Assembly: GCA_025602905.1 (NCBI GenBank)
Contig: JAHLKI010000004.1
Coordinates: forward strand, 558,001 to 622,000
Origin: Phlyctochytrium arcticum
Lineage: Eukaryota > Chytridiomycota > Chytridiomycetes > Chytridiales > Chytridiaceae
Direction of reading: 5' to 3'
Length of the DNA stretch: 64,000 bases
How positions within the stretch are numbered: the first letter of the stretch is position 1; the number at the start of each line of letters is the position of its first letter. Shown piece by piece: positions 1 to 58,420 of the stretch. Below the pieces are notes generated by a model. That model made no database searches. It was not told the DNA's origin and worked only from the letters and a program-made list of their open reading frames with translations. Position numbers and translations under genes: made by a program.

Positions 1-129
1 ACTCCCAGTGTTTCATGATGGATCAATGTATAAATCCCAATATCCCTATCCACAACCTTAGATCATCTACATCCCATAGGTCTAGACCGCCTGCCCCCCT
101 TCGTACGCAGAGTATGTATAGCCAGACTT

Positions 130-2500
130 CATTTCCTTTACCATGTCCCATTTTAGTTGCCTGATGTTGGATCCCCGCGTCTTTCGATTATCCATTTCTC
201 TCCGTTTATAGTAAGCACATCTGTATATCTTAATTACTACCTGCAATGTCAAATTCGCACTGGATACCCCTTCACCTTTTCTGTATGTTCTGGTGTTTGT
301 TTTTCCCAGCACAACCTTTCCCTGCGTCATAACTTGCATTTAAGTACATCCGAATCAGTCGTTCTCCCGAACTTGCGTACTCGCGTATTTATAACTTATA
401 CGACGCATTCTCAGCTCAATTTTAACCACTACCACTACTTTGTGGCTTATTATCTATTATTATTGCCACCGGTCTCCATACCCCGCAACGCCCGTCAAAT
501 GCGCATCAAATCATGCGTCGTGATTTTCCCACGAACAAAATTCGGATAAATTACATAATCGTCCCTTAATCCTTGAGCAACGCGTATGTAAGACAGTATT
601 TCCAGTATTTCCTTGATTTCACTCTTGAAGTCCAACATACGAGCCATCTTAAACTTTTATTTCTTGTCCTGCGTTTGGATTGACCAGAATACCCATTCCT
701 CCTTCCAAGGCATTGGAGCCACAACCAAGACCAATGTCCCATCACGCGCTGAAACAAATATCAGCAACAGACGGTCCGCGTATACCATGAATCCCAATTG
801 AAACAATGGGATTTCTACCCATTTTCATGCTGGATCTCAGGTTCGGATTCGAGAGATTCCTAACAAATATTGTGATTTCCTAACGCAGTTATTAGCAAAA
901 AGATTTCTTCTTCGGATAATCGAGGAGATGCGCTTGAATTTCAATGTCTGATGGACAAAATGCAAGATGTCCTTTGCTGATAGCTATTCAACTTTTCCTA
1001 TTTGGAGCCGATGTCAACCATGATGCACGTCTCTGGTGCCGAGAATGAAGATCTGCAAATTCAGCCACCACCACATAAAATCGGAGCGAGCATTGGATTT
1101 CATTCATCCAAATTAATTGCAAAGCACAAAAGGGACTCCAGTTCCCGTCTATCTCCCACATCAACTCAATATCGCCCACTGTCGGGATGGGGAACCGCTC
1201 CCTCTGCCATCAGTAATAATATGTGACCCATCAGTGCTGCGTTCAAAATTGCCACAGCCATGGTCGGTGGGACCCGGCCCTTTCAATCCTCACACACTTT
1301 GCTACTTGAACTCTACATGGCTAGTCCTGGTACACACCGAGGTCTTGGTCAACGCCTGCCTCGATGGGAAAGAATGTCATACGACCGGGGTATGCTCATC
1401 GTGCGTACTTGAACAGCATATGTGCCGAACGTTTTTGGGGCCTGAAACAGACAAAAAAGGACCTAGGGCCGTTAACCCTGCGTTTCTGTCTAAAACTTAC
1501 ATGGTAAGGAGTGAAATCACTTTGTGTCATCGTAAGATGTCATTCCTGATATGTTTCCTCCTTTCAGTTATGAGCACGACGTTACGACATTAAGAAGATG
1601 CTCATGAATTTCATCGATGCCTTACAGAAACACTACAATTTTTTTGTATTGTCCCGCGTAACAGGTACGCACTGCACTACCAGACAAAAATTGCATCTCG
1701 ATATCAAACTCACTTTCATTTAGGCTTGATCAGCGCTCAAAGACAACCACCCTCATCCACACTTTCTTTGACGGATATACGCGCTCGCAGGTGCGATGCT
1801 CCCGTTGCGACCACAAGTCCAATTCGTACGAGCCAATTCTGGATATCAGCTTGGCCGTTGCGAGTACGGTGAACAAGGCTTTGGCTATGTATACCAAGGC
1901 AGAGAAACTGCAAGGCGACAACCAGTACCGATGTAGCAAGTGAGTCTGACGTTTTTATCTTCTTCTTCGTTATATGAGCCAACCCGCAAGCATTTGTTAG
2001 CTGTTCTGAACTCGTTGACGCCGTCAAGCGAGTGACAATTGAGATGGCACCTCAAATTTTGACCATCCACCTAAAGCGTTTTGACGTTTTCGGACGGGGA
2101 AAAAACTCTGCACCCCGTAGAGTTTCCTGAATCGCTGGATATGGAACCATCAATGACTTCAGGCAGGGTAAGAGCATTTCAACTATGCAACCTGCCAGCG
2201 CAAAACGAAACTCAAATGCTACATTTTTGTCAGGGCCAGTATAAATACAACCTGTATGGCGTGGTCCGTCATCACGGCAAGTCTACGGGTCATGGCCACT
2301 ACACAAGCTTTGTCCAAGGCGCCAAACGCCCATGGATAATTCATAATAACGATATGGTACGGAAATACAGACTGGAGACCGTTCGTAGCGGACAAAGAGC
2401 CGATGTTATCTTTTGTTGTATACACCGCAACCCCCGAGTCAAAGAGAAAATGTCAGTCCGACACAACCACCCAGCAAGACAGTCCTACCGCCTCTATCTC
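130..2500 (+). pseudogene. Ubiquitin-specific protease pseudogene, copy 1, with upstream duplicated DNA
   Basis: Remnant of a USP/UBP cysteine protease (peptidase C19), the family that removes ubiquitin from proteins. Conserved blocks appear in the right order but in different frames: the Cys box as LCYLNST near 1300, a zinc-binding CxxC (CSSC) near 1400, EDAHEF near 1595, the finger segment with GYTRSQVRCSRC near 1780, HLKRF near 2070, and the His box with GHGHYTSF and NNDMVRK at 2290-2360. The Cys box is altered (expected GNTCYLNS). A TAA sits directly before EDAHEF where the family usually has Gln, and the frame shifts just after it. A plausible intron lies at about 1940-1999. The roughly 1 kb upstream carries no convincing gene and is part of the same segment, which recurs at 3.9 kb. 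I infer a dead gene; a heavily spliced functional gene is unlikely given the stop and the shift. Confidence 0.75.
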
Positions 2501-2639
2501 TAAACCACCCATGCTCGTCCGTAAAGTGTTTGCTGAAGTGGGCAAATCTTCGGGGTATGGACTTTGTACCTCACGCAATACGGAACCCCCCCCCCCCCCA
2601 ACCAGTAACAAAGAAGGCCCGGAGGGCGGCGAAAAATCC

Positions 2640-2935
2640 TATCCATTTGTTCCGGATCGGCCGTCCCCAAAGCTTCTATAACCAACCAGAAACGCCCCAG
2701 CATGAGCAACTCTCTAACCTGGGACTACGACCCCTAGACTGGAGCAGACTGACTCCGTCGACGCTTTGCCAACCTCCCTCCATCTTGTCCCCTGCAACCA
2801 CAAACTTGACAAAGTACATGAAGAAGCCCCCCATTACACACGTTTTGTCAAAGGCGCCCAAAGGCTCTTGCATATCTTACAATAATGCGGTGGTGCGAAA
2901 ATGCAGCAGACTGGAAACCGGTCAAACGTGAACCC
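2640..2935 (+). pseudogene. Extra fragment of the USP C-terminal block
   Basis: This short stretch repeats, with many differences, the last USP block seen at 2270-2400: a His-box-like run reading HYTRFVKGAQ in one frame, then an NNAVVRK-like segment followed by RLETG. No other protease blocks accompany it. It is a third, truncated piece of the same gene family and is not expected to be coding. Confidence 0.5.
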
Positions 2936-3880
2936 CGGGTCAATGTTTTTCCCCAGCGGCCGTTGCGAAAGTTGCCGACTCTGTTTCACGTTTGACATTC
3001 AGCAAAAAAAGCGGCAGCAACAACCGTGTAATACCGGGGAACGCCCGCCTTAACCGGACCGGACGGACTCGATGGATGCAACAAGAGCGCAAAACAGTGC
3101 TAATGAGAAGACCACCCGCACCGATTCTGCCCACTTCATAATGAATCGTTATCCGAGCTCCTGCATCGTCGCCGACCATACCGTGTGCCCGAATTTCGCA
3201 CAGATAGCAAGCTGGATCAGATATATATACATGACCGAAAAGGGTTATCGCAGACGTGAAGCGGGCCAGGCTTAGATGCGTGATGTGAAGAACTACGAGC
3301 AGAGCGTAAAACACCATTTCACAAACTAACCCTCCCGCACCCGTAAACGTCATAGATGATCTTGTACCTTTACTCATATATAACTTTTGGTGTTGACTTA
3401 TTTGTTCAGTCCAAACCCGTCCTTATTGGTACACACTTGGCCGTAACTTAAAACGCAAAGCATTAAGAAGAGGTGAATGAAATATTGCAGAATGAACTTT
3501 TCTAACTACAAAATCTCATTTTGCCGAAAAAGTTTGTCTGGGGAAACCAAAAAAACCCTTTCTTAGTACTTTCAAGAAAAAACTGTTGTAATGTTGTTTA
3601 TGGAGATCACTGTTTGACAGCCAACTTATGTGTGCGTATGCTTTGGTTCTCGATCTCGTTGTCTATTCAGTTATCGAGTAAAGTTCTTCAACACTCAACC
3701 AGGTCTATCCTCCCTAGCGGAGTTACTAATACATGTGTTTACGTAATGCATAAGGATCTCGAATGGTCATCTCATTGACCGAATTCATAACAAAAACTGA
3801 TATGTTGGGGATTACAATAGATATATACAGGGGTTCACTTTTTTTGTTAACACCAGTTTACAAGGCGTATTGGAAATGAG
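2936..3880. other. Spacer between duplicated segments, no gene seen
   Basis: No reading frame here resembles a protein I recognise and none has a convincing start with splice sites. The sequence is AT-rich with no obvious repeat structure. It separates the two long copies of the USP-containing segment. Confidence 0.5.
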
Positions 3881-3884
3881 TCTT

Positions 3885-5570
3885 TAACTTAGCTCCATTT
3901 CCTTTGTTACATTTTCAAAGTTGCCTGATATTGGATCCGCAACGGTTGTCTGGTTGACATGTCCCTATTCTTGCTCAATAAGCACCATTTGTATATTTTT
4001 ACCGTTACTTGTAATGACGATTCACCCATGATGTTCTTTCTACTTTTCTTTTTGCTTTAGTTGTCGATAAAGTTTCTGAGAACCCTTTCGCCGCGTCATG
4101 ATAGTCTAAACTTTTGCATATTCGAGTCAGGGTTGACTTTTGCACCCTCGCGTATATTTTTCACCATGGGCTCTATACAACGCATTCTCATCTCGAGCTT
4201 AAATGTTCTCATTCTCCTTCATACCGCATTAAATATCAGTGCCCCTACTGGAATAACCAACATCACTGCGTTGTTTGTTATTCATTTGCCACTTTTTTTT
4301 TGCTATCAGTTCCATTTCTTGCGAGGAACGGACGTGATTTTCCCACAAAACAAAAGTTCGGGTAAATTACATAATCTCTTAGTCCGAGTATTTCAACCGC
4401 CAGAATACACATTCCTCCCTTCTACGGCGTTTGAGCCATAACCTAGTAGACCAACGGGCTGAAACAAATATCAGGAACGGACGCTTTGGCGTATACCATG
4501 GGTCTCAATCGATTTCTGCCGGTTCACTGATGGATCTGAGGTTCGGATCCAAGAGATTCCTAAAAAAATAATCATTTGCTAACCTTTTGCTCCTTTTAGA
4601 TATTAACAAAACTCGGATAATAAAGGAAGATGCGCATGAATTTCAATATCTGATGGGACAAATTGCAAGATGTCCTCTGGTGATAGCTATTCACGTTTTT
4701 TCCTTTGAAAAAGCGGCTTGCTTGGGTTTCCTACGCCGGTCTTTCAGCATACAAGACTTCGCAAGCTGCACTTTTGCGTGTGCTCTTTGACCACCCATCC
4801 TCGTTGCGCCCGACCACACTGGTCGCAGCCATGGTCCCCGGGGTCAACCCTGTTATTTGAACTCGATTTTGCAAGGCCTAGTTCATACCCCTCAACTAGC
4901 CAACGCTAATAGCATCGCTCGGCCTTTACCCATAATGAATCTGAAGCCACCGACTGTTTGATATCAAACTCAACTTTCTATTTAGGCGCTCAAAGACAAC
5001 AACCCTCATCCGCACTATCTTTGACGGATATACGCGCTCTCGCAGGTGCGCGTTGCTCCCTACAAGTCCCAACTCATATAAGCCAAAATCTTGGGACATC
5101 GCACGTACTCTCAAAGAAAGGCCTGTTGCTGTTTATATACCATTACAAGGGCGATAACCAGCGTTTTTCACGTATCATCCCGTTTTGTTATATGATTTAT
5201 TTGTTTAGAACTTGTTGACGCGCAGTGATAGGCCGAGCAAGTTCTCACTACTATCCAACTAAAAAGATTCAACGTGTTTCCTGAATTGCTGGATATATAT
5301 TGGACCATCCCATGACTTTAAACAGGGTAAGTGCATTTACGCAAAAAGAAACACATTCTTGTCAGTGGTCAGTTCCAAATACAGCCTGTATAGCACCACG
5401 GCAAAGTCTCCGGGTCATGGCCACCACACAAGTTTTGTCAAAAGCGCCAAATGGATATCCTTACAACGATGCTGCCGTCGTGCAAAAATGCAAGTTTTGG
5501 AGACGGAAAAAAAAGAGCTGGGCTGCACTCTTTTTGTTTTATATCAGATCCTGCCTTATCTCATAGCTAC
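3885..5570 (+). pseudogene. Ubiquitin-specific protease pseudogene, copy 2
   Basis: Second, more degraded copy of the segment at 130-2500. Upstream non-coding DNA aligns with copy 1 (for example the gttgcctgat.ttggatcc block at about 156 and 3920, and the gctgaaacaaatatcag block at about 746 and 4458). Inside, EDAHEF occurs near 4630, a finger-like segment with DGYTRSR near 5020, and a His-box-like GHHTSFVKSA near 5415, in several frames with stops between. About 500 bp present in copy 1 between the Cys region and the finger segment is missing here. The catalytic Cys block is not recognisable. Not coding. Confidence 0.7.
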
Positions 5571-5581
5571 ACGGGCGAGAA

Positions 5582-6460
5582 GTACACACCCACTCTCGCC
5601 CCACGTCCTGGCTATGTGGAATAAAATTCACGTTGGAGTGCTGTGATTTCCATATGCTCCTGCTGTGGAAGCACCATGTACCAGCAACGTGAGATATATG
5701 TGGAGGCGACGTGAAAAACACAGCGATTTTACGTGGCGGCTTTCATATGGCATAGCTGTGGAAATCCACCTGAATTTTGCATGGGGGAACATCATGTTCA
5801 TACGATGTGGAGACCACGTCGAATTCATAAAAACCTCCACGGCCATTTGAAATGGGGTGACTTTCAGGACTTGTGCTGTTTTGCAGAAAGAAAGAGAGAA
5901 AAGAAAAAGTATAAAGCTCCGAGGGCTCTTTCGATTTCTCCCTGCATTTTTTCATCCACCAAAATGCCTGGACGGCATCAAAGTCCTTCTTTCATCTATG
6001 GCGATGGCAGCGACACGGGCAGACTTTCAGGCGGCTGGCGATACATACCTGCAACCAGCTCTGACTAGGACAACAGTTGAGGAGGAGGAGAGGGGTTAGA
6101 ATGATAGACGTAGATATAGCGCATACTCGTAGAAACGTAGACATTATATAGCGTATAGCGTGTAGCATCTTGATTCAACATCAACAAAATGATTTGACAA
6201 ATGAATGATTCTCTCCGATTGGATGGTTGGCATGGTTGCGGGACGGGCAGTAGGCAAGACGTCGGCCACGTCCATTTCATCTGGGATTTGATCCCACGTC
6301 GTGGCCATGTGGAATTTGAGCCCACGTCGTGGCCAGGTGGAAAGCCTGCCACGGCAACCAGACGTGGGGGATACCGGATGTTGAGGCGACGTGGAGCCCC
6401 ATGTAAAATAGACGTGGCCAGCTCCACATAAAATAGCTGTGGAAAGGAGTGGGTGTGTAC
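5582..6460. mobile_element. MITE-like element with 14-bp terminal inverted repeats
   Basis: The ends are exact inverted repeats: GTACACACCCACTC at 5582-5595 and GAGTGGGTGTGTAC at 6447-6460. Similarity continues imperfectly inward (tatgtggaataaaa on the left against the complement of the cacataaaata stretch on the right). The 879-bp body has no transposase frame, so this looks like a non-autonomous DNA element. Inside are several acgtgg/ccacgt words near both ends, and a small transcription-unit-like stretch: TATAAA near 5910 followed by an ATG at 5964 in good context that opens a 34-codon frame ending at 6068. I could not find a clear target-site duplication, so the exact ends and superfamily are open. 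Confidence 0.5.
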
Positions 6461-9132: not shown

Positions 9133-12100
9133 CTAGAAATCATACTGTTGCGGGGGATTGGCTCCCGGGACGGCGCCATAATAAATGTCGTTGGTATTTC
9201 CTGGATACCGAGAAGAACTGGACGATTGAGTAGATGTGGAGCCCGGGTCTGTGGCGCCGTCATAGTATGCAGCACTTCCGGGGTGCTGAATAGGAGGCAG
9301 AAAATGCTGGGGCTGGTGCGACATTTCGGAATGGTTTTGTGAGGGGCCAGCATGAGGCAAGCTTGGCAACTGATGAGGAGATTGATGAGGAGATTGATGA
9401 GGTTGAGGATAAGCCGAAGAAAAATCTTGTCGATAGCATGCGCGCCGCGCCATTGTCTGGCCTCTTTCACTGAACTCACGGGAAATCGGTGGAGCCCAAG
9501 TCGATGGGGAGGGTAGATGTACCTCTCGAGATGGCCAGGAAGGAATAATGTGACCGCCGCCAGAACGCGTGGGAGGATGCGGGGAATACGCCGGATTCGG
9601 GTTCGAATGAAGGGTATCAGTTGCATATGAGGGTACCCACTGGGGCGAAACGCTGATCGTCATAGAAAGTATAAGCCGATGGACTTGGAGAAGCGAATGA
9701 ATCTGGTGAATATGACCCCTGGGTCAGATCCTGGGAATATCGCGTCGTGTATGAGAGAAAGTAGACGGACGAAAAGGATCAGAGGTCATGGTAGGGACTG
9801 CGTAGTAAGAGCTGGATCTGATGGCAAAGTTTGATAACCCGTCGGGGAGCAAAGGTTGACTTTGCACGGTAGACAGACCCAAGAATGCTGACGTGGAAGT
9901 GTGCGGGATTGAACAGGGACCCGGCAATGGAGCCGACGAGGCAGACTGAGACAACGGCCCTAAGGTATTAAAATCATGAGAAAATATACACAAATCGTGT
10001 CTGCCGCAGTAACATTACCAGCAGGCTCTGCCGAAGCAGAAGTCCTCGCCCGTTTACGCACAGGCTTCGAACCTGTTGCAGTGGCCTTGTCGGGGTTTTT
10101 CACAGGGCAAGTTCTTACGTTGTGCTTTACATATTCCTTGCAACCCGTGCATCTCGTCAACCCTCGGTTCCTCGCGTTACTTTGCGCCGCCTTCTCGGCT
10201 CTCGTCAAAAGCCTCTTCTTCGCATTTTTCCCAATTTGAGGCGGAAGCACTTGGGATTGGGGGACGCTGTTTTCCGGCTTGGAAAGATTTGTCCAAAAAC
10301 CAGTGTGGGTGAATGGTTGCGGGCAGCAAACGAGCTGCAGTACCGTGCTATAACTTCAAATCCCGCATCTCGTGAGAGCATGGCAGGCCGATATTTAAGT
10401 GATGTTTTTTGTCGCAGGTTGACAGTTTGTACTTTTCGGCCTTCTTGCGTTTCTTTTCCATCTCTACTCTTGCCTTGCTGTACTCTGAACGAAGAATTTT
10501 TCTTGCGTGCTTTGAAACTAGTCTCATCACCAGAGAAAGGAACGGCTTTTCGACACTTGGAACGTGGTTTTTTTGGTTTCCCCGCCGCAGATGGCATCTC
10601 TTTTTCTGCTTTAAACAGACCTTCTTCATGACTTTATAGATGGCGAAGAAGGATTTTCGGCTCGATTTCAACATTTTCTTGAAGGCCGTATGGGCCCCTT
10701 CGACCCGCGACGTTGAAATTTGGCCAAAATGTAAGACTTCCGTCATCCAAGGCGCACAAAATTTTTCTTTAAAGGGTATCATCCAGATATTTTCGATGTA
10801 ATCGCTCACTTCCCGAGGAATGTGCTTGATGATGTTCGCCCATTTTTTTTTCAAATTTTTCATATTTGTAGGTACGAAGTGCCAAATCACCAAACTTTCC
10901 TCGAAACACATGCCAGGTGTAAGGAGTGACAGCGTCCGGCTCCTGGCCAGCAGCCTCCGCTTCTGCTTCTGTTGGAAATTGTGATATGCTTCGCTTCAAT
11001 GTTCGCCAGGATGTGCCAGTAGCACAAGATGTGCTTGGCGTTGGGAAGTACACGTTCTACCGCATTTCGGAGGGCTTGGTCCGCATCGGTGAGGATGGTG
11101 TCAGGGTCGAGTATAACGCCATTCTGCACGAAGCTTTCTAGGATCCATACCAGATCTTCCTCCGTAGCCGTCTGCATAAAGCAATAGCCCAGGGTATAGG
11201 TCAGGTTGGTATTGGTGTTGCACACCACATGCAACATTCCAATGCCATGTTGGTTTGTGCGGTAAGTTTCATCAATTTGGATCACGGCCGTGCTTCTTTC
11301 CGTTTTCAACAAATCGTGGACTGAGTTTGGGATAACAAGTAGATGGGTGACGCGGTTCTAATCATCTAGCCTGATCTGATGCATCGCCCCATCTTTCTGC
11401 AGTTCACGAAGTAACGCATCCATCTCTGAAAGTCCAGCTAACTCCGCAATTCGCAATGTTTGCTTCTTGTTATCAATGTCTTTGTCGGTAAGCACAAAAT
11501 CATCGCCAAATTGTGTCCTCATGGTATCAAAAATGTCTGCCGTAGCAGTGTCGGACATCAGAAGTTTTTTCAGTGTGACTTCCTGGTCGGCTGTCAACAC
11601 CCGACCCTCCCTGAACACAGATGGGTCCTCGAAAGCGGTGTGATTGTGGTCACCTGTGGTGGTTATCGTGTAGCTTCCGTCGGTTCCTTTGTTAATCAGT
11701 GCTGTCCATTCGCATCCGCACAGTCTGCTGGACGTCTCACGCTTCCGGTCGTTCTCCTTTACGCGAGACTTTAGGACGTGAGCCCGCAAGCAGGCGACCT
11801 TACGCCAATGGCCTCCCTTCTTTCCCGCGTATTCTTTTCCCTTCTTCACCAGAAATCCCTGGGGCCGAGTAGCTTCTTGCAACGCACAGTACGCTTCGTT
11901 GAGACTACCAAACTTCGCTTGCTGAAAGTGGCCATGGTCCCAAATGATGCTCTTATCCGCCAGTGCTGCATCAAGATCGTCACCCGTATCTTGCTGTGAA
12001 CCATCAGATTGCTCCCCACTCGGATCTTCATCTTGGTCTTCCACGTCGGTGAAGTCTAAGTCGGAAATACCGTCGAAATCGTCAGCGCCACTCGACATGC

Positions 12101-12338
12101 TGGAACTGGAGGAGCTGCCCGAGGAGCTTTCCGAATCATCATCAGTTTCAGAGTCACTGTCTTCCGCCCTGGACAGAGCTTTGCGTATGGTTTGAGAGCC
12201 CTTATTGTCACTAGGACAAAGCGAGCTAGTGTCACTGTGGTCGTCCGGGTCGTTCAGAGGTGCGAGAATTGCGTCTGGAAAGTGAACGAAATCAGGCCAA
12301 ATTCCTGTCGGGCATATCTTATATGAGTTACCGGTCAT
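9133..12338 (-). pseudogene. MULE transposase, broken
   Basis: The protein begins at ATG 12338. Order of parts: an acidic Ser/Asp/Glu-rich N-terminus, a FAR1-type zinc DNA-binding domain (CLRAH, SRLCGCEW, GDHNH), then the MULE DDE domain with QIDETYRTN (first Asp), LTDADQALRNAV (second Asp), WHILANIEAK, and TSRVEGAHTAFK (Glu), then GLPCSHE, a zinc knuckle (CTGCKEYVKHNVRTCP near 10160) and a Pro/Gln/Ser-rich tail down to about 9133. Two kinds of damage are visible: an in-frame TAG at 11358-11360 between the DNA-binding and DDE domains, where the next codons continue in the same frame, and one or more likely two frameshifts at about 10890-11000. Further frame changes follow GLPCSHE and occur in the tail; one near 9965-10020 could be a real intron. 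All three catalytic residues survive. I infer an inactive or trans-dependent copy. Confidence 0.75.
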
Positions 12339-12489
12339 GTCTATGGTCGTTTTCGTAGGCTGAGTTCTTGAGTAGGTTGGGATTATCGCTACTTGGTTGA
12401 ACTCAATTCGAACTCAACGTCGGACTATAGTCGGACTTTCAAGACTTCAATTCGAAAGAGACTGCACAGCCGCCTGCCAGGTTTTTCGT

Positions 12490-15664: not shown

Positions 15665-16106
15665 TGTGATTTTGTTTGTGGTGGGGATGGGTGATCTTGC
15701 TTTGGATCTTGCTTGCAGAAACAGCCAAGGATTGGCCAGAATAAACAACCGCAAGGGATCGCGTCTCTTCGGAGATCACACCCCCGAACTGATCATCTCA
15801 CTCTTCTCAAACTCTTTTCACCCCCACACTTATTTCCATACCGATTAATTCTGCGAATGCCATCGGAGATCTACAAACGGACAATCTGTCGGCACTCAAG
15901 GACCATTGATGAACAAAAACGAAAGAACTACGAGAGAGGGATCTTGCGCGCAAACTCGATATAACGCAAAGGTAGCTGGACGGCCAAGCAAGCGCAGCTG
16001 GAAGCAACGACCGAAGGCGACCAGCGGGCGGGGACTCATCGGTATAATACTGCATTCGCAGACAAAAGTTTCAATCCACCGTGGGGATTGCTTGCTCTGA
16101 AAATGT
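15665..16106. other. PGS1 upstream region and uncertain 5' edge of retroelement
   Basis: Contains the promoter side of PGS1 and then degenerate sequence running into the LINE fragment. No separate gene is supported. Confidence 0.4.
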
Positions 16107-17820
16107 TTGCCAGAACAATGGAGCGGTCCGTTTTTTGTCAAGGGAAAGTTGCAAAAATATGACGTTGGATGCCGAGCAGTAGTATGCTATATGCATACTG
16201 TCAATGATCAACCTTCGAATACTTCGGTATTGCGTCGTTTATTTGAACGTCGGGTTTTGTCAGTTTTTGAAAAAGAGCCGTGGAGCGCGGTGCATCCAGC
16301 ACAGGGCGGTTTCCGGTCTCGGCATGCGGCAACAACTCAAGCGTTAGTCAGTGATGAAAGTATCCGTTTAGGGGCGGATATTTCTATTTACCTTGACCTC
16401 AAAGCTGCCTATGACCGCGTCCGATTTCATTTGATTTTGGAACGGGCAAAACAAGCCGGAGCTGGTGTGTGGGCACTGGCTCTGATATCAAGTATGATGT
16501 GTCGGCAACCGTCGTCAAGATTTGTGGTGAATGCAGCTTTGACCAGCTCCTTGGAGCGGGAATGCGGTCTATTCGAAGATTCACTTCTATCACCACTTCT
16601 GTTCAACATCTTTATCGACTCGCTTCTTTTGATCATTAATGACTTTACCGACATTGGTTCACGTCGTTTTCCTCCTATTTTGGGGTATGCCGATGATCTC
16701 AAATTGCAACCGCTCGACATTGGAGAAGCCCAAATGTTTTTAGATGTTTGCTCGGCTTGGGCGACATTAAATGACATTGGTTTTTAATCACAACAAGTGC
16801 GGGATAATTTGGAAAGGTAGCTGGGACGCGGAGGGCCCGCCGGAATTGATACTTTCCCGCAAGGCCGTGCCAAATGTGTCTAGCTACCGATATCTGGGTT
16901 TTCCTACTTCATCTCGCGGCATTATCTGGACTGACCACTTGGAGGTGCGAGTGAGCAAGGCCGACAAAATGCTTAAGGCATTGATGCTCAGCGGAGACTT
17001 GTGGTCTGAAAATGTCCGCCTGACATTATACAAGATCTTCGTGCCCTCCCACACTGACTTTGGTCTACGTGCTTTCTGGGTCTGGAGCATGCACGATCCC
17101 GTTCGAAATAAACTACGGGATGGGTTGGAACAATTGCATATTCGCGGACTGGAGTGGATATTCGGACGTCTGGCACCGCGCGGATTGCATGAGAGTATGT
17201 CGGCTTTGGGGAGATGGGATCACCGGGCGGTGACCATGATTGGTTCTTACTATCTGCACTTGGACCGGATGCCTTGTTCAAATCCCTTGTTTCATCTCTC
17301 TTCTATTGTCAACCCTGGAGTCTCGGAGCTCTCTATCAATGCTATTTTGCCACGGTGTCTGCGGAAACCGGCGGAGATAGAAGCCTGGATGATTGCTGTC
17401 GGTGTCGCCAATCTCACTGAAGGGGAACGTCCCCGTATTGGATGGAAGGCTTGGATTCGAAAGAAGGGCGTCGAGGACATTGTCCAGCGTCGTGTTAATC
17501 AAGTCGGCCCCTTATCAAGACAAAACCGGACGCATACCACGCATTCGCCATCTCCGCGTTTGGTTGCCGGGGTCTACGTCCTCGATCAGCGGAAGGAGAA
17601 GGGAGAGTGCTGGAGCGTCTGATGTCCAACTCTGATTGTTATGGTGGCACCATTCGACCATCTGTTAGAGACATCGATCAGCTTACAGGCGTATTTGAAG
17701 GCACTCTGACGGCTCTGCTAAAACAGGCATGTCTAGCAACCATGGACGCAAGACTATTAATGAACGGCGCGGGCGCGCAGGCCATCATGTATACTACGAA
17801 GTATGCCACAAGGCTATAAA
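16107..17820 (+). pseudogene. Non-LTR (LINE) reverse transcriptase fragment
   Basis: Remnant of a LINE-type retroelement. The reverse transcriptase is clear: an AQGGFRSRHAATTQAL segment, the catalytic LDLKAAYDRV, a LLSPLLFNIFIDSLL block, the YADD box as GYADDLKL near 16690, then NHNKCGI, a YRYLGF thumb motif and a LYKIFVPSHTDFGLRAFWVW segment. The frame breaks once at about 16780, at a run of T just after NDIG; the second part continues in the next frame to about 17622. The endonuclease and ORF1 are missing, so the copy is 5'-truncated. The usual Gln-Gly before SPLLFN is changed (FEDSLLSP). Downstream, a short frame to 17820 may be the degraded C-terminus. Not functional. Confidence 0.8.
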
Positions 17821-51545: not shown

Positions 51546-53651
51546 CTACACATTAGTATCTTGAAAGCGGATGGCGGCCCGGAGGATGGAGTGAAATACT
51601 TCCAAATCCTCACTTGAGAAAGTGGAGAAAAGGAAAGCCATTGCAACATCTTTTGGTAGGTGGGAGGGAAGCCTTTCTAAGAGACCAAGCTGGTAGAGGA
51701 CAATGTTCACGTAGTTTTTCTTTCCCAAAAGAGTGAACAACGGGAACAGCCGCTTGAGGCACATCTTGATCTGTTCGAGATCCCCACTAGACAGTAAATA
51801 CGGACAATCCACCGCAAGAGGAATGTGATCTTCGAAAAGCGAGATGATCGAATCCACCATCGCCTTGCGGACAGGTGTTGCCTTTATATTGCTGGATGCC
51901 GCCGCCTTGTAGGAACGCAAGACTTCCTTACGGCACTCTTGCCAAGCGGTCATAGAGAGGGCCAACATTGCCGTCCTGCGCTTTGGCCGCATGTTGATGG
52001 GAGCTGTGTTTTCCACGTCCGGATACCCGGCAACCCACAGCCGGTGTATGATTGTCCAACCATGGACAAGGACTGCCTCCTGTATGTTCAGGGCTATATG
52101 CATATTGTCCGGGACCGGTAGGACGTGAGGCCTGAGATTACTATACTTGGCTGATCGCAGCAATTTGCTAGCGTACATCCAAACATAGTAATCGCCGGCC
52201 AAAACCACAGACTTACTAAATGAACCGTCTTTGTCAGGATAGTTGACTTTCGCCAAGAATGTCTCGATATTGTCCATCACTGGTTCCAAATCGAGAGCGG
52301 ACTTCATAGAGTTGTTGTCGCTGCCGATAATGTGGAAATCCTCTTGCGATCCGGCCTTGGTAGCCATACTGTAGGCGTACATTTTTTTGGACAAAACTTC
52401 ACCGTTACGTAGTTCCGCATACGTCTGCGTTGCGGGAGCACACAGGACTGAGGGAATCCATGTTGTGTCCTGCAACACAGAAGCTAGAACATCGGTGATT
52501 GCAGGAGGAAGAGGTGGCAGTTCCCTGTGAAGCTTTACCGCATAGTTGGCGGTGGTCCTCGCACTCGTAAACTTTCCGGGTGCGTTTGCGGCATCTGGTA
52601 CAGGGCGGACTTGACACCAATGGAAGTCATCAATGGTGACGACCAAGAGTGGGTCATTCTTCAAAATATCTTTCACAACGCGCTCGTGGGCCGTCATGAT
52701 CATGTTGTTCATCTGCGTAATCGATTTTGACGGATGATAGCCCAGATTCACCCGTGAAAGAAGCCGTTGGTCTGTGTGGGATCCCGTGATGAAGACAGAT
52801 CCGATATATCGTTTGACGTAATCAGTCTTCCGGTCCATACACTGTCCCTCATAGCATATGGCAAAGATCAAGTGCCGCTTCATTCGATCGTTGTACAGAA
52901 CAGAATACCGGCTTTCGTCATGTCCGACCATGAGTGACTTGAGCTCATATAGGCGGGGATACTGAGCGACAAATTCATCCATCTCGACGAACGGATTTCC
53001 TCCGAACGGATGAGCAATGAAGTTGCGCATTTCTTGGTGAAAATCAGCAAGAGTCGCAGGAGATGGTCCTGATGTTTCAGAAATATCAACATCATCGCCT
53101 TCAGGTTCCGGAAGCTCGAAGTCCGTCATCAAGATGACACTGCCATTCGCAACCGCATCGACAACGTTGTCGTCACTGACTTGAGCGTTCACTGCTGCAT
53201 CCACCACATTGTCGGTACTGATGCTGGCTTCCTGAATGGCCGCAACCTCATTGGGTTGAGCAGGGATGATGGGCCTGACGGCGGGCTGTCGAATGATCCC
53301 TGCTTTGTACCAGCGGGTTTGACACGCATTGCAAGCATACGGATCAGCAACTCCTGGTCCAACCTGGGGCCTCAAACGTGCCGCCCGAAGGCTGTCAAGT
53401 TCAGCCCAAATGAACTTGTGAAATCGGGTTGAGCTCTTGGTCCCGCAGCCGATGCATCCAGGGTTATAGCCATATTTGTTACCCCTCTTACCGGGTACTT
53501 GATCGTACCAGCTAAGTCCGTCTGAGACCTGGCGCTATAATGGTTGTAATAAGAAGAAGTAAAAGAATGAGTGAACTGACTCCTACAGCCGGATAAAGGC
53601 TTGTTTTCGAGATCATGAAGATGCCCATCTCACCTTTCTTTTGGGCGGCAT
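51546..53651 (-). CDS. Transposon main gene: zinc-binding protein, candidate transposase of unrecognised family
   Basis: Two exons, 53651-53634 (MPPKRK) and 53534-51546, joined across a 99-nt intron with GTGAGA donor and TATAG acceptor, give 668 residues without a stop. An N-terminal zinc site is likely: Cys33 and Cys36 (CIGC) paired with Cys74 and Cys77 (CNAC), followed by a basic RWYK, reminiscent of GATA-like fingers but with a longer loop. An acidic linker follows. The main body has acidic residues placed like a DDE nuclease: VVTIDDFHW (Asp about 308/309), VVLAGDYYVWM (Asp about 454) and SSEDLEVFHSILR (Glu about 648), with VPDNMHIALN between. It is reminiscent of uncharacterised fungal mobile-element proteins (DUF6589-like), but I cannot confirm that. 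Transposase function is inferred from its place inside exact inverted ends and a target duplication. Confidence 0.7.
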
Positions 53652-54136: not shown

Positions 54137-57100
54137 TCACACCCAGAGGTTGGGCGGCGGAGGTTGATAGTCAAAATTCTCGGGCAGATTCCACTCCAGT
54201 CGGTCTCCGCCAAAAGTGGAGTAGTACCAGAGAAGAAATGGCATAGCGGATGCCGCGTTGATGTCTCGATCGAGGATAGCTGGGCCAACACCATATATAT
54301 ACGCGTTGGGAAGCGGCTGCCAAGTGGCCAAAGCTCGGGTCGGGGGCGCTGGTGCGGAGTCGATGGAGCGTCGCGTTGGGTCTTGCTGTCGCTGCCGGAC
54401 AACGGCTCAGCGGCCGCCTCACTCCCTGGTCATTTTCGCAGAATCGTCGGATCCGATGACCCCCTGCTCCAACACGACGTCGGACCCGTTTCTGCTCATG
54501 AACGGTACACTGTCGGATAAGGCCCGTCGTCTCCGTAGTCAGCCCGGCTGTGGTGTAGCGGGTTGCGGGAGTACCCTGAGCCAGCTCTTCATACATGGTG
54601 AGATGGGCAGGGTCGGCAGTGGTCGTTCCCTTTTCCGGCATCATGACCACCGTCGCTCCTTGGACCGCCATCTCCCGAGCCAGTGACTTTGTAGGAACCG
54701 AAGCCTGTCCTCGTGCCCAGGAAAAGTTGGCCCATCCGCAGCCTACAATAGGGGCAACTGGACGGGGAGCAGCAGGAGTGATGGTGGGGTGGATAAATAG
54801 CTGGCGGCGTTGGGGTCGGGAGAGCATCTGGCCATGGGCATCACGAAAGAGACGGATGCTGGCCGCCTCTTGGTGGATTGACTGACCGCGGGCGTTGGTG
54901 AAACTTGGATATAGGAGAGATCGAGCCGTGAGTGTCAAAGCACGTTGGCTATAACTTGATCGAGTGACTGTTGCGTTATAGTAAAAAGCCGAGTAGAAAT
55001 GAGCTCGGATTTGGTCTAGGGATGCGTAGACCACATGCAGATACTGGGCTGCATTCCCTCTCCCCGCCCCGCACAGGGCGTCTTTTCTTCCTCGCAACCC
55101 TTCTATCAGTTCTAAATACACATAAAGAATTTAGTCATTTTGGTTGACTGGACAATCCTGGGTTCTGCTTCTCTCACCCTTTAATGGTTGCGATGCTGCG
55201 ACCCGAGCCGCGTGTTTTCTTTCGAACCAAGCTGACTTGGATAACTCCCGATACTGGCGCCCCCGCATTCTCGTAACGTCCTGACGGCGATTTACGCGGT
55301 TTTGCTGACGGGCAGCGGGATTGTCCCCTTGCGCTCGCGCCAAATCCGCTTCACTGGCCAAATTCGCTCGGACCGCCACTGCTTGAAATCGCTGCCCAAA
55401 GTCAATGCCAATGACGGGGCGGATGACGGGGATAGTGATGGACGGGATGTATGGGCTGGGAGCTGATGGTCCAAGATGCAGGACACGCCTAGCAGGGAGA
55501 ATGGGACGCCGGTTGAGTTGATGAAGGGCCCCCCCGGATTGGTCGGGGGGTGCTCAACTCTCCGAAATTCTGCATGAGCGTGGTCGCGAAAGTCTTGTAG
55601 TTGATCAATGGTCGGGATGCGGCCTGGTGAAAAAGGGCAGTTAGAAACTATTAAACTTTATTGTGACACGGAAACACTCAAGAACGTACGGGTAAAGTTT
55701 GGAAGGGGGCGAACCTCAAAGCCAAGCATTGTGTTGTCACCGTTTGTTATGATGCTGACTTTATCGATTGCGAAATTTTGGCCTCGGTTGCGGAAGGTCC
55801 AATGTGGTGGGGCGCGGACAAGACTTTTGATTTTAGAAATATCAAACAGTTGTCCCATCATGTCAGCGCGACCGACAGGATCTCCGGTCAGATCTTTCCC
55901 TGACCGGGAGAGATCTTGCGGGGCCAGTGCGCCGGGGAGCATGACTTGGATGGGGTTCGCGCTCATCCACCGTCCCAAGATTTGACAGATGGCCCAGTAG
56001 TCAAATTGTGCATAACCCTGAACTGGTCCTCGGTCCGTTCTGTCCGGACTGAGTTTCACGTGTGTAAGAGTTCGCTTGATACGAGGTCCGCCGGGGAACT
56101 TGCTGTGGACGGTTCTGAAATTCGTATTCAGACAGGTATTGGAAACGTGGCAGCAGGTGATGGGCACGGCTGCTTTTACTGCTCATCAGACGTTTCCATT
56201 GCCAGTTCGAATTGCGCAGTTCTGCGACCATTTCTCCAAGAGTCGTTGCTGTGGGTTCGGGCGGCTCCTGCTCTTCCAGCTGCGGTACCAGCACTGCGTC
56301 GGTGGCATAAGAGCACAGCTCTTGCAATGGTCTATGAAAGAAGCAGTGGGTCAATTTTGCCGTCGCCACTTTTTTAAAAAAACTTCCAAAGGACCTACCG
56401 GACGAAATCGACGAAATCTTGTTGGGCTAATGGCGAGGCGGCAAACGTGTTTAACCCTCCAAAAAGAAGTTGGTTGCCAACCTGCACGGTATGATCCGGG
56501 TTGTGATGTAAGGTCGATGAAATTAGGTACAGTGGTTGGAGAAAGTTGATGGTGCGACGCACTAGAGTGAAAGTGAGCGGGCATGTGAGTGAAGTTTTAC
56601 CTGATTTGCCAATGTGTTATTCTCACGCCTACCTAGTTTTTGGCGTTCAGATAATGGTGCCCCCACACCCACACTATCAAGAGCCAAGTGATGCAAGAGG
56701 GTCTGCTCGAGGTGTTCCGTGACTCGACCAGCGACCATGGTGCAGAAGGCATTCTTCATCTTTTTTGCTTCGATACTAAACAGCTGCTGAAAATCTCCTC
56801 TATAGAGTGTAAAGTCCCGGCGGGTATAGGCCAATCCCGGGCCGCCAGCCCTCATAGCCGGTACCAAGTGAGTGTCGTAGGTGTTTTTCAGGTGTTGATT
56901 GCGATGAGTTGGAGACAGGTCGACTGCTTGTTGGAGGGCTCGGTAAAAATACATCTGATCGCTGCCACAGCCGTCAAGGGTTATGTTTTCAGTAACAAGC
57001 AAACCTGAAAAACAAAAAAAAAATATTGCGGGAGTTAAATCTTTTGGGAATAGTCGTTCAAGCAAAGCTTCCTACATACCTCCAGGGATCTGCTGTCCGG

Positions 57101-57329
57101 TAGCTTGAAAATATTGCCCAGCCGCATTGCGACACTGATTCAGAAAGGCTGATGCTTTCCGTTGGTGGTGGAGAATGAGCAGATGGTAAGCGTCAAAGAC
57201 GGCACTGGAAAGATCGCGAGCTGCCGTCTTTAGGTGATCAATCATCTCTCCGGCTTGAACGGCTGGTATGGCATGGTTGATGAAGTTCTTTAACCGACCC
57301 ACTTTTCTCGTCACGTAAAAGTTGGGCAT
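54137..57329 (-). CDS. Fanzor-like RNA-guided nuclease (eukaryotic TnpB relative), with apparent frame breaks
   Basis: Fanzors are eukaryotic TnpB relatives that cut DNA guided by an RNA. Supported exons (minus strand): 57329-57080, 57004-56633, 56561-56399, 56331-55690, 55623-55178 and 55111-54137, joined by introns of 66-75 nt. The N-terminal half is helical (MYFYRALQQAVDLSPTHRN). The RuvC-like nuclease shows all three catalytic motifs: GIDFGQRFQAVAV (Asp codon 55401-55403), VVMMPEKGTT (Glu codon 54633-54635) and DRDINAAS (Asp codon 54263-54265), after a FAIDKVSIITNGDNTM block matching the TDG-like segment of the family. Frame problems: a shift at about 56.09-56.20 kb, another at 55.50-55.56 kb near runs of six and seven C, and a change before the last motif that needs either a 37-nt intron (GTGAGG donor) or a frameshift. 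The zinc-finger cysteines after EKGTT are readable only in the next frame (CRPC). The start may lie further upstream. Decayed or mis-sequenced copy are both possible. Confidence 0.75.
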
Positions 57330-58420
57330 ATCGGAATGATGAAAATAGGTCCTGAGGAGAGGGAATATAAACTAGACAACAAAGTTAGTACTATATCGGC
57401 CAATCTGGGCATGCTCTCATCCTACCTTTGCAGAAGAAACTTGAAAGATCGGAACGACAAATCTTTTGTTTCGGGTATTCAGCCAAAGGTTGTAGCTGAG
57501 AAATATGGAAAAAGATAGTTTGTGATCCGCCGGGTAAGCCTGGAAAGCTATTCAACTTACGTATTCAGAGGAAACTAGAACGTTTCGACCGACAAATAAT
57601 GATTATCGGCAAGTGTTGAAGGTTTTGACCGAACAAGGAAAATGATTCTTTTGGGGAGAAACGAATTGATTGCGGGCGGGACCAAAGATCAGACTTTGCC
57701 TGCAAAAAAGATCAGTTATGTGTTTTGAAGAACTCGCAACGTCATTGTCAACCTACGTCGTCAAAACGAATGAGATATCCGGAGCAACAAATAAAGATTC
57801 CGACGTGTTGTAAAGTGAACTCTGTTAGAGATATACGGATTGGGCGTGAGGATTGGAATGGTTATCAAGGTTATTCTTATTGGTGAAAACCGTAAAGTAT
57901 TCGAAAGGGAGCGTGAGGGAGGCCTCAACATATATACGTGTCGTTCTTCCCACAAATGTCTCCACAAGTAAAGACAGTGGGAAATTAAGATCACGCTTAC
58001 TTTATAAAAGACAATGGGAAACTAAGATCGCGCTTCTTTCATAACAGATTTCAGGTATTAGAAGATTTACGCGTCGGAATGTTGCTGAGGTAAGTGACGC
58101 GTGCAGGCGTGCTGTCAGTTTTCTCTGCAATTCGTTGATTCAAGACATTGAGGAGTACCGTAGTACCGTATTGTATTATAACCATAGTTTATTTTTTTGG
58201 GGCGGAGATGCGGGCAACGAACCAATCCAGTAAGTGCAGTGCAGGAAAAGTAAGGTTGGCGGGACCATTCATGCTGCGTAAGAGAATTTGCACTATCTTG
58301 AAGATGACAGTGGTACTCTTTTCGTCTGGGGCAGGCAACTCTCAGGCAGTACCAATTTCATTATGATATATATAGGGAGGGGACGTAAGGGAAAAGGAAG
58401 GAGAGAGAAAGAAATCGAGG
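57330..58420. other. Upstream region of the Fanzor-like gene
   Basis: Contains a well-formed intron-like stretch on the minus strand (GTAGGATG donor near 57425, TACTAAC branch site, CTAG acceptor near 57372) and another with a GTAAGT donor near 57562 and CTCAG acceptor near 57498, so the gene may have 5' exons here. A direct repeat of about 25 bp (tgggaaa-taagatc-cgctt) occurs at 57978 and 58015. No clear transposon end was found. Confidence 0.45.

Follow-up and report, generated by a model that had tools for sequence, protein, structure and literature searches.

In the TnpB proteins of IS607 and IS605, the RuvC triad is split over three blocks. For the Fanzor proteins of eukaryotes, the signature of Bao and Jurka, 2013, combines D-X(125,275)-[TS][TS], a C4 zinc finger after [TS][TS]-X-X, and an RD lying 5–50 residues from the finger (PMC3627910), and the fingerprint described in PMC10711439 consists of a RuvC-I DPG and a Glu (E-alt) that precedes the zinc finger by six residues. 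One Fanzor survey began from the zinc-ribbon profile PF07282 (PMC10711439), and another used four profiles, including PF07282, together with structural mining (PMC10432273). In the literature searched, no paper joined Fanzor with Phlyctochytrium, no finger-less Fanzor appeared among the matches listed, and a search on eukaryotic TnpB lacking a zinc ribbon found none. Here, we describe a locus in a window of 64,000 nucleotides from the chytrid Phlyctochytrium arcticum (assembly GCA_025602905.1, contig JAHLKI010000004.1, positions 558,001 to 622,000), which a first-pass annotation made from the sequence had read as a Fanzor-like nuclease gene. The locus carries a triad of Fanzor type, and two published defining features of Fanzors, the C4 zinc ribbon and DPG, fail in it and in its relatives.

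Results

The window copy is a minus-strand multi-exon gene (57329–54137) in which GIDFG, MMPEKGTT, and DRDINAA follow each other in order. Its features, in window positions, are as follows.

54137–57329, minus strand: decayed copy of a Fanzor-like gene, with a spliced length of about 948 aa, five inferred introns, and three frame breaks
57081–57329, minus strand: exon 1, beginning MPNFYVTRKVGRLKN (boundary approximate)
56637–57005, minus strand: exon 2 (boundaries approximate)
56404–56565, minus strand: exon 3 (boundaries approximate)
55688–56333, minus strand: exon 4, containing the SIITNGDNTMLGFEV block, with a frame break near 56.1 kb (boundaries approximate)
55712–55756, minus strand: SIITNGDNTMLGFEV block upstream of the RuvC part, putatively WED-like from its position
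55176–55624, minus strand: exon 5 with RuvC-I (GIDFG, 55409–55395) and a frame break near 55.55 kb (boundaries approximate)
54140–55112, minus strand: exon 6 with RuvC-II, the Cys/His block, and RuvC-III, and a frame break near 54.3 kb (boundaries approximate)
54678–54749, minus strand: RuvC-II block IVGCGWANFSWARGQASVPTKSLA, the portion resembling ordinary Fanzors
54621–54644, minus strand: MMPEKGTT, containing the putative catalytic Glu and not followed by a CxxC
54378–54509, minus strand: Cx2H...HRx4C...CP block, where Fanzors have the C4 zinc ribbon
54251–54271, minus strand: DRDINAA with the third acidic residue
53937–54136, minus strand: 3' noncoding end of the element, with the hairpin TGGCACAG..CTGTGCA and a terminal ATAGTA (by eye)
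57509–58401, minus strand: 0.9-kb upstream region sharing 72–81% identity with 5' sequences from five copies of group B (mosaic)

The motifs named in the first-pass annotation were all recovered on the minus strand, GIDFG at 55409–55395, MMPEKGTT at 54644–54621, and DRDINAA at 54271–54251, and the ITNGDNTM block that it had placed ahead of them is SIITNGDNTMLGFEV at 55756–55712, the ITNG of which is invariant among six aligned family copies. In the spliced reading, D and E are 235 residues apart, close to the 234 first proposed, whereas E and the last D are separated by 123 residues rather than about 110. The motif order is as annotated, but MMPEKGTT and DRDINAA lie in different frames without an inferred intron between them. 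Compared with the family, the frame is interrupted at three places in all, here near 54.3 kb and farther upstream near 55.55 and 56.1 kb, so the copy is broken, a possibility that the first-pass annotation had allowed for. The copy is also a mosaic, its 0.9-kb upstream region resembling group B of the family and its coding part being nearer to group A. The five inferred introns fall at alignment columns 114, 271, 333, 562, and 757, close to those of copy L041 (118, 271, 335, 562, and 754), whereas L037 and L040 have them at 116, 288/289, 351, 583/584, and 771, not counting one additional inferred intron in each; all boundaries were inferred by script and are approximate, GT and AG not being hit exactly. 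The correspondence with L041 bears out the reading of a eukaryotic multi-exon gene and argues against spread via spliced mRNA. Bacterial contamination, which had already been discounted, was rejected on the basis of the shared intron positions and of family proteins from P. arcticum.

DNA and protein searches of the 31.5-Mb assembly revealed a multicopy family comprising 11 near-complete copies (the window copy and L037–L046, of which L038 is truncated by a contig end) and fragments at eight fetched loci (L047–L054), with smaller matches outside this count. The more intact paralogues for which a search had been suggested do exist, in that 2 of the 11 copies, L041 and L042, are open over 951 aa, with no stop or frame break and seven inferred introns; because the group B template was made from L041, the splice sites of these two copies are not independent of it. 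L041 and L042 occur on the same contig in opposite orientations, with 99.7% identity across 3.6 kb. The L042 copy (2102–5734, minus strand of that locus) has the same right end as L041 and a cut 5' side, which recalls the one-ended transposition described for Fanzor1 genes carried by Helitrons (PMC3627910).

All 11 spliced readings have D and E, and 10 have the last D, the remaining one being cut by the contig end, with spacings of 229–244 residues from D to E and 118–130 from E to D; L044 has DSDVNAA as its third motif. The alignment of six copies shows no substitution at D293, E534, or D664, nor at C582, H585, C605, or C620. With L042 and L045 excluded, the nine remaining copies form 36 pairs, of which 27 were saturated at synonymous sites and nine were estimable, eight of the latter giving dN/dS values of 0.11–0.32 (0.16 for L037–L038, 0.32 for L039–L040, 0.27 for both L041–L046 and L043–L046, and 0.11–0.14 in four pairs with dS above 2); the ratio was 0.86 in the youngest pair, L041–L043, which is very young and has few changes. 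The family has therefore been under purifying selection in the past, and conservation of the triad goes beyond chance because it is kept in paralogues that are mostly saturated at synonymous sites. The NCBI gene models fail at the RuvC-II block, P0001 (L040) skipping it and P0002 (L039) misreading it, and a frame break is inferred at the block in both copies. With models as faulty as these, the family would escape annotation and structure mining.

The window copy has 237 residues between D549 and the TT that begins at residue 787 of the spliced reading, within D-X(125,275)-[TS][TS], and the family as a whole has D, E, and D in the order conserved in the TnpB/Fanzor/Cas12 RuvC superfamily; its D-to-E distance exceeds a search pattern published in PMC10711439 (printed as x(120160), taken as 120–160). 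On the other hand, no CxxC, and hence no C4 zinc finger, occurs on the way from E to the last D in any of the 10 readings that cover this region, the open L041 and L042 included. What these 10 have in common in the ribbon region is a Cx2H...C...C block, with an extra His five residues ahead of the middle Cys in all except L039, which may represent a rebuilt metal site. RD (SD in L044) lies 118–130 residues past the Glu in 10 readings, with no C4 finger to serve as the reference point. DPG is absent at RuvC-I, which reads DFG in all 11 P. arcticum copies and DLG in a relative from Thoreauomyces (P0004). Downstream of the Glu, the pattern is E-x6-C in P0004 and E-x6-D in the P. arcticum readings, the right position without the finger.

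A Fanzor/TnpB profile search had been proposed as the check on the family assignment, and PF07282 was negative at the locus; it gave 15 matches elsewhere in the genome, none on the same contig. No match above the curated cut-off was obtained for the family proteins in Pfam, NCBIfam, or PDB. The lowest E-values, NCBIfam ABZJ_00895 (0.0077, in one of six members) and FabG reductases in PDB (0.07), were taken as chance, as were the weak matches to RuvX (0.27), RRXRR (0.15), and acyl-CoA dehydrogenase (0.16). Two AlphaFold models were of low confidence (pLDDT 42.9 and 41.8). When a profile of the family RuvC region was run against 697 ORFs, taken from the window and eight loci, with a part of SpuFz1 added, the first match after three ORFs of the family itself was the Fanzor ORF of locus L004, which has PF07282 above the cut-off, at E 0.031. 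The RuvC-II block contributed 7.9 bits to this match and a colinear second match, covering RDYNAA and the tail, just 0.4 bits; the SpuFz1 part was unmatched (−3.3 bits). The L004 match stands out little, since it is followed at E 0.07 by a frame in L008 that is not known as a gene and is probably a chance match. With the full-length family profile, L004 again came out on top (E 0.028, the next at 0.17), and the N-terminal half of the family protein found no match in the L004 region. Such single-profile matches, at E 0.03, hint weakly at kinship with Fanzors.

Profile–profile comparison by hhalign against a set made of L004 and L005 (both with PF07282), the L008 ORF (without PF07282, SpuFz1-like by eye), and the SpuFz1 part gave a score of 41.9 and a probability of 71.9. 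This score was reached by none of 100 column shuffles (mean 13.4, S.D. 2.8, maximum 23.4), and the reversed profile scored 11.9. An earlier run had given a probability of 68.7 against L004, L005, and L008 and of 62.2 against both canonical sets pooled; against the second canonical Fanzor set alone, the probability was 0.04, and the two canonical sets of this genome detect each other only at 7.0. Scans for ordinary Fanzors with which to deepen the profile gave none in one case and a single short locus in the other. The alignments argue with moderate strength for common descent with Fanzors, mainly through the RuvC-II block.

The gene is carried by a transposable element, as its dispersed copies have common ends and differing flanks. 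Some group B copies share the right end ...CGAATATAGTA, which is matched without mismatch at seven places in the genome, at one of which the common end extends over just 64 bp. They also share a left end near TCCGCGTGGCTCCAATAGCG, with four exact matches and a fifth with three mismatches. In group A, L037 and L039 end in AATAGTAAG. By eye, neither an inverted repeat nor a target duplication was recognized, and no second gene was recognized between the element ends, at least beyond the 5' 1.1 kb. A hairpin lies 3' of the stop codon, reading GGCACAG..CTGTGC in L037 and the window copy and GGCACAC..GTGTGC in six group B copies (L041–L046); inspection by eye shows a single covarying pair between the groups, whereas the sequence deviates in L039 and the hairpin is missing from L040. 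The hairpin is a candidate guide-RNA stem and gives weak support to RNA guiding. Two other elements, at L056, L057, and L060, have about 0.25–0.45 kb of the group B left end in common, and one of them, with a 603-aa frame that has no Pfam match, is a possible mobilizer. The ORF of L060, which we had presumed to be Plavaka-like, received no confirmation from Pfam. The neighboring ORF in the window (51549–53534, minus strand) has no Pfam match and at least 91 genome matches, many 98–99% identical. It was rejected as a partner of the Fanzor-like gene because it belongs to a separate abundant element of its own and because in L046, the one other examined family locus with this ORF, it sits on the opposite side of the gene.

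Other mobile-element sequences were seen in the window and genome. These are the remains of a MULE-type transposase at 10890–12413 on the minus strand (MULE, E 2.9e-24; FAR1 matched only weakly), a reverse transcriptase remnant at 16101–17619 on the plus strand that continues in another frame (RVT_1, E 2.8e-9), and, at positions 1–1740 (plus strand) of locus L001, a 580-aa open frame in which a Copia-type reverse transcriptase (RVT_2, E 7.9e-35) and a TNB zinc ribbon (PF07282, E 1.9e-17) are combined. Searches with Rfam at gathering thresholds and for tRNAs gave no match.

In three protein searches, in each of which 8000 candidates were scored, all proteins recovered were from P. arcticum except for one from Thoreauomyces humboldtii; these searches depend on shared exact words, which bounds the reach of absence elsewhere. 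Two scans with the family queries A1 and A3 gave no viral relatives. The T. humboldtii protein, HKX48_006158 (P0004, 957 aa), is annotated as hypothetical and matches the family profile at E 2e-77 over most of its length. It retains GNANYKFQRGHGPVPTKRL and EQRTGIYC, with a Cys at the expected first zinc Cys, which looks like a half-lost finger, and differs from the P. arcticum family in its DLG, in having T-G for [TS][TS] after the Glu region, and in a predicted protein that stops before RD.

Discussion

Compared with Fanzor1, as represented by SpuFz1 of Spizellomyces punctatus (PDB 8gkh) and by L004, the P. arcticum family shares the D-E-D order, the Glu followed by [TS][TS] at the alternative position, the RD.NAA at the end, and a eukaryotic, transposon-borne setting, and with L004 it also shares a G.a.f....P.K.L block ahead of the Glu; it differs in its length (about 950 aa), its five to seven inferred introns, and the absence of a C4 ribbon, a PF07282 match, and DPG. 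With TnpB of IS607/IS605 it has in common, by motif, a RuvC triad distributed over three blocks (PMC10711439), whereas the Fanzor-position Glu, the spliceosomal introns, and the missing zinc ribbon set it apart; no TnpA was recognized beside the gene, without a profile search for it. The Fanzor assignment of the first-pass annotation therefore holds for the RuvC-II block and the triad, and as a new lineage, but not for the ribbon, the RuvC-I motif, or profile membership.

We consider it probable that the window copy is a decayed member of a transposon-borne chytrid family descended from Fanzor1-type TnpB relatives, the intact members of which would act in a Fanzor-like, RNA-guided manner. The D-E-D triad is kept, presumably in a RuvC fold, with the Glu at the rearranged Fanzor position and RuvC-I as DFG or DLG, while the C4 ribbon between RuvC-II and RuvC-III would have been lost or rebuilt as the Cx2H...C...C block, a putative metal-binding site. 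Intact relatives may bind RNA made from the right end of the element that carries them and, so loaded, cut matching DNA, which would favor retention of the element. It is because of this descent that an RNA-guided nuclease using right-end RNA is our best guess. A bolder form of the idea, that of a chytrid-specific RNA-guided nuclease lineage without the C4 ribbon, with a rebuilt Cys/His metal site and perhaps serving as the sole mobility enzyme of its element, strikes us as quite improbable.

The protein might instead be the transposase or integrase of the element itself, with an RNase H-like D-E-D core and a likeness to Fanzors that is convergent or very old, as would suit dispersed copies with common ends, the only gene recognized in the element (its 5' 1.1 kb aside), and the failing Fanzor-defining features. 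However, the RuvC-II block best matches zinc-ribbon Fanzors, and Fanzor1 genes often ride other transposons, some of them nonautonomous (PMC3627910), and we regard this explanation as unlikely. A separate capture, by eukaryotes, of a TnpB with DPhiG and a rearranged Glu, rather than an offshoot of Fanzor1, seems similarly doubtful: it would account for DFG or DLG at RuvC-I, and a TnpB clade of its own that combines DPhiG with the alternative Glu has been described (PMC10711439), but the nearest match, in a comparison set without DPhiG TnpB, comes from this same genome and is a Fanzor with DPG, and none of the three protein searches returned a prokaryotic relative among its 8000 scored candidates. 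That the window copy is merely a decayed ordinary Fanzor, its ribbon lost by mutation, would fit its three frame breaks, yet the other copies, open ones included, lack CxxC as well and share the Cx2H...C...C block, making this highly improbable.

Descent from Fanzor1-type relatives thus remains our preferred explanation, and because the survey in PMC10711439 started from PF07282, it probably missed ribbon-less relatives of this kind. A ribbon-free branch suggests that more OMEGA-like nucleases may lie among unannotated fungal proteins. The better-preserved copies elsewhere in the P. arcticum genome make the lineage testable, and a ribbon-free branch with open copies poses a direct question about the role of the zinc ribbon in these enzymes.
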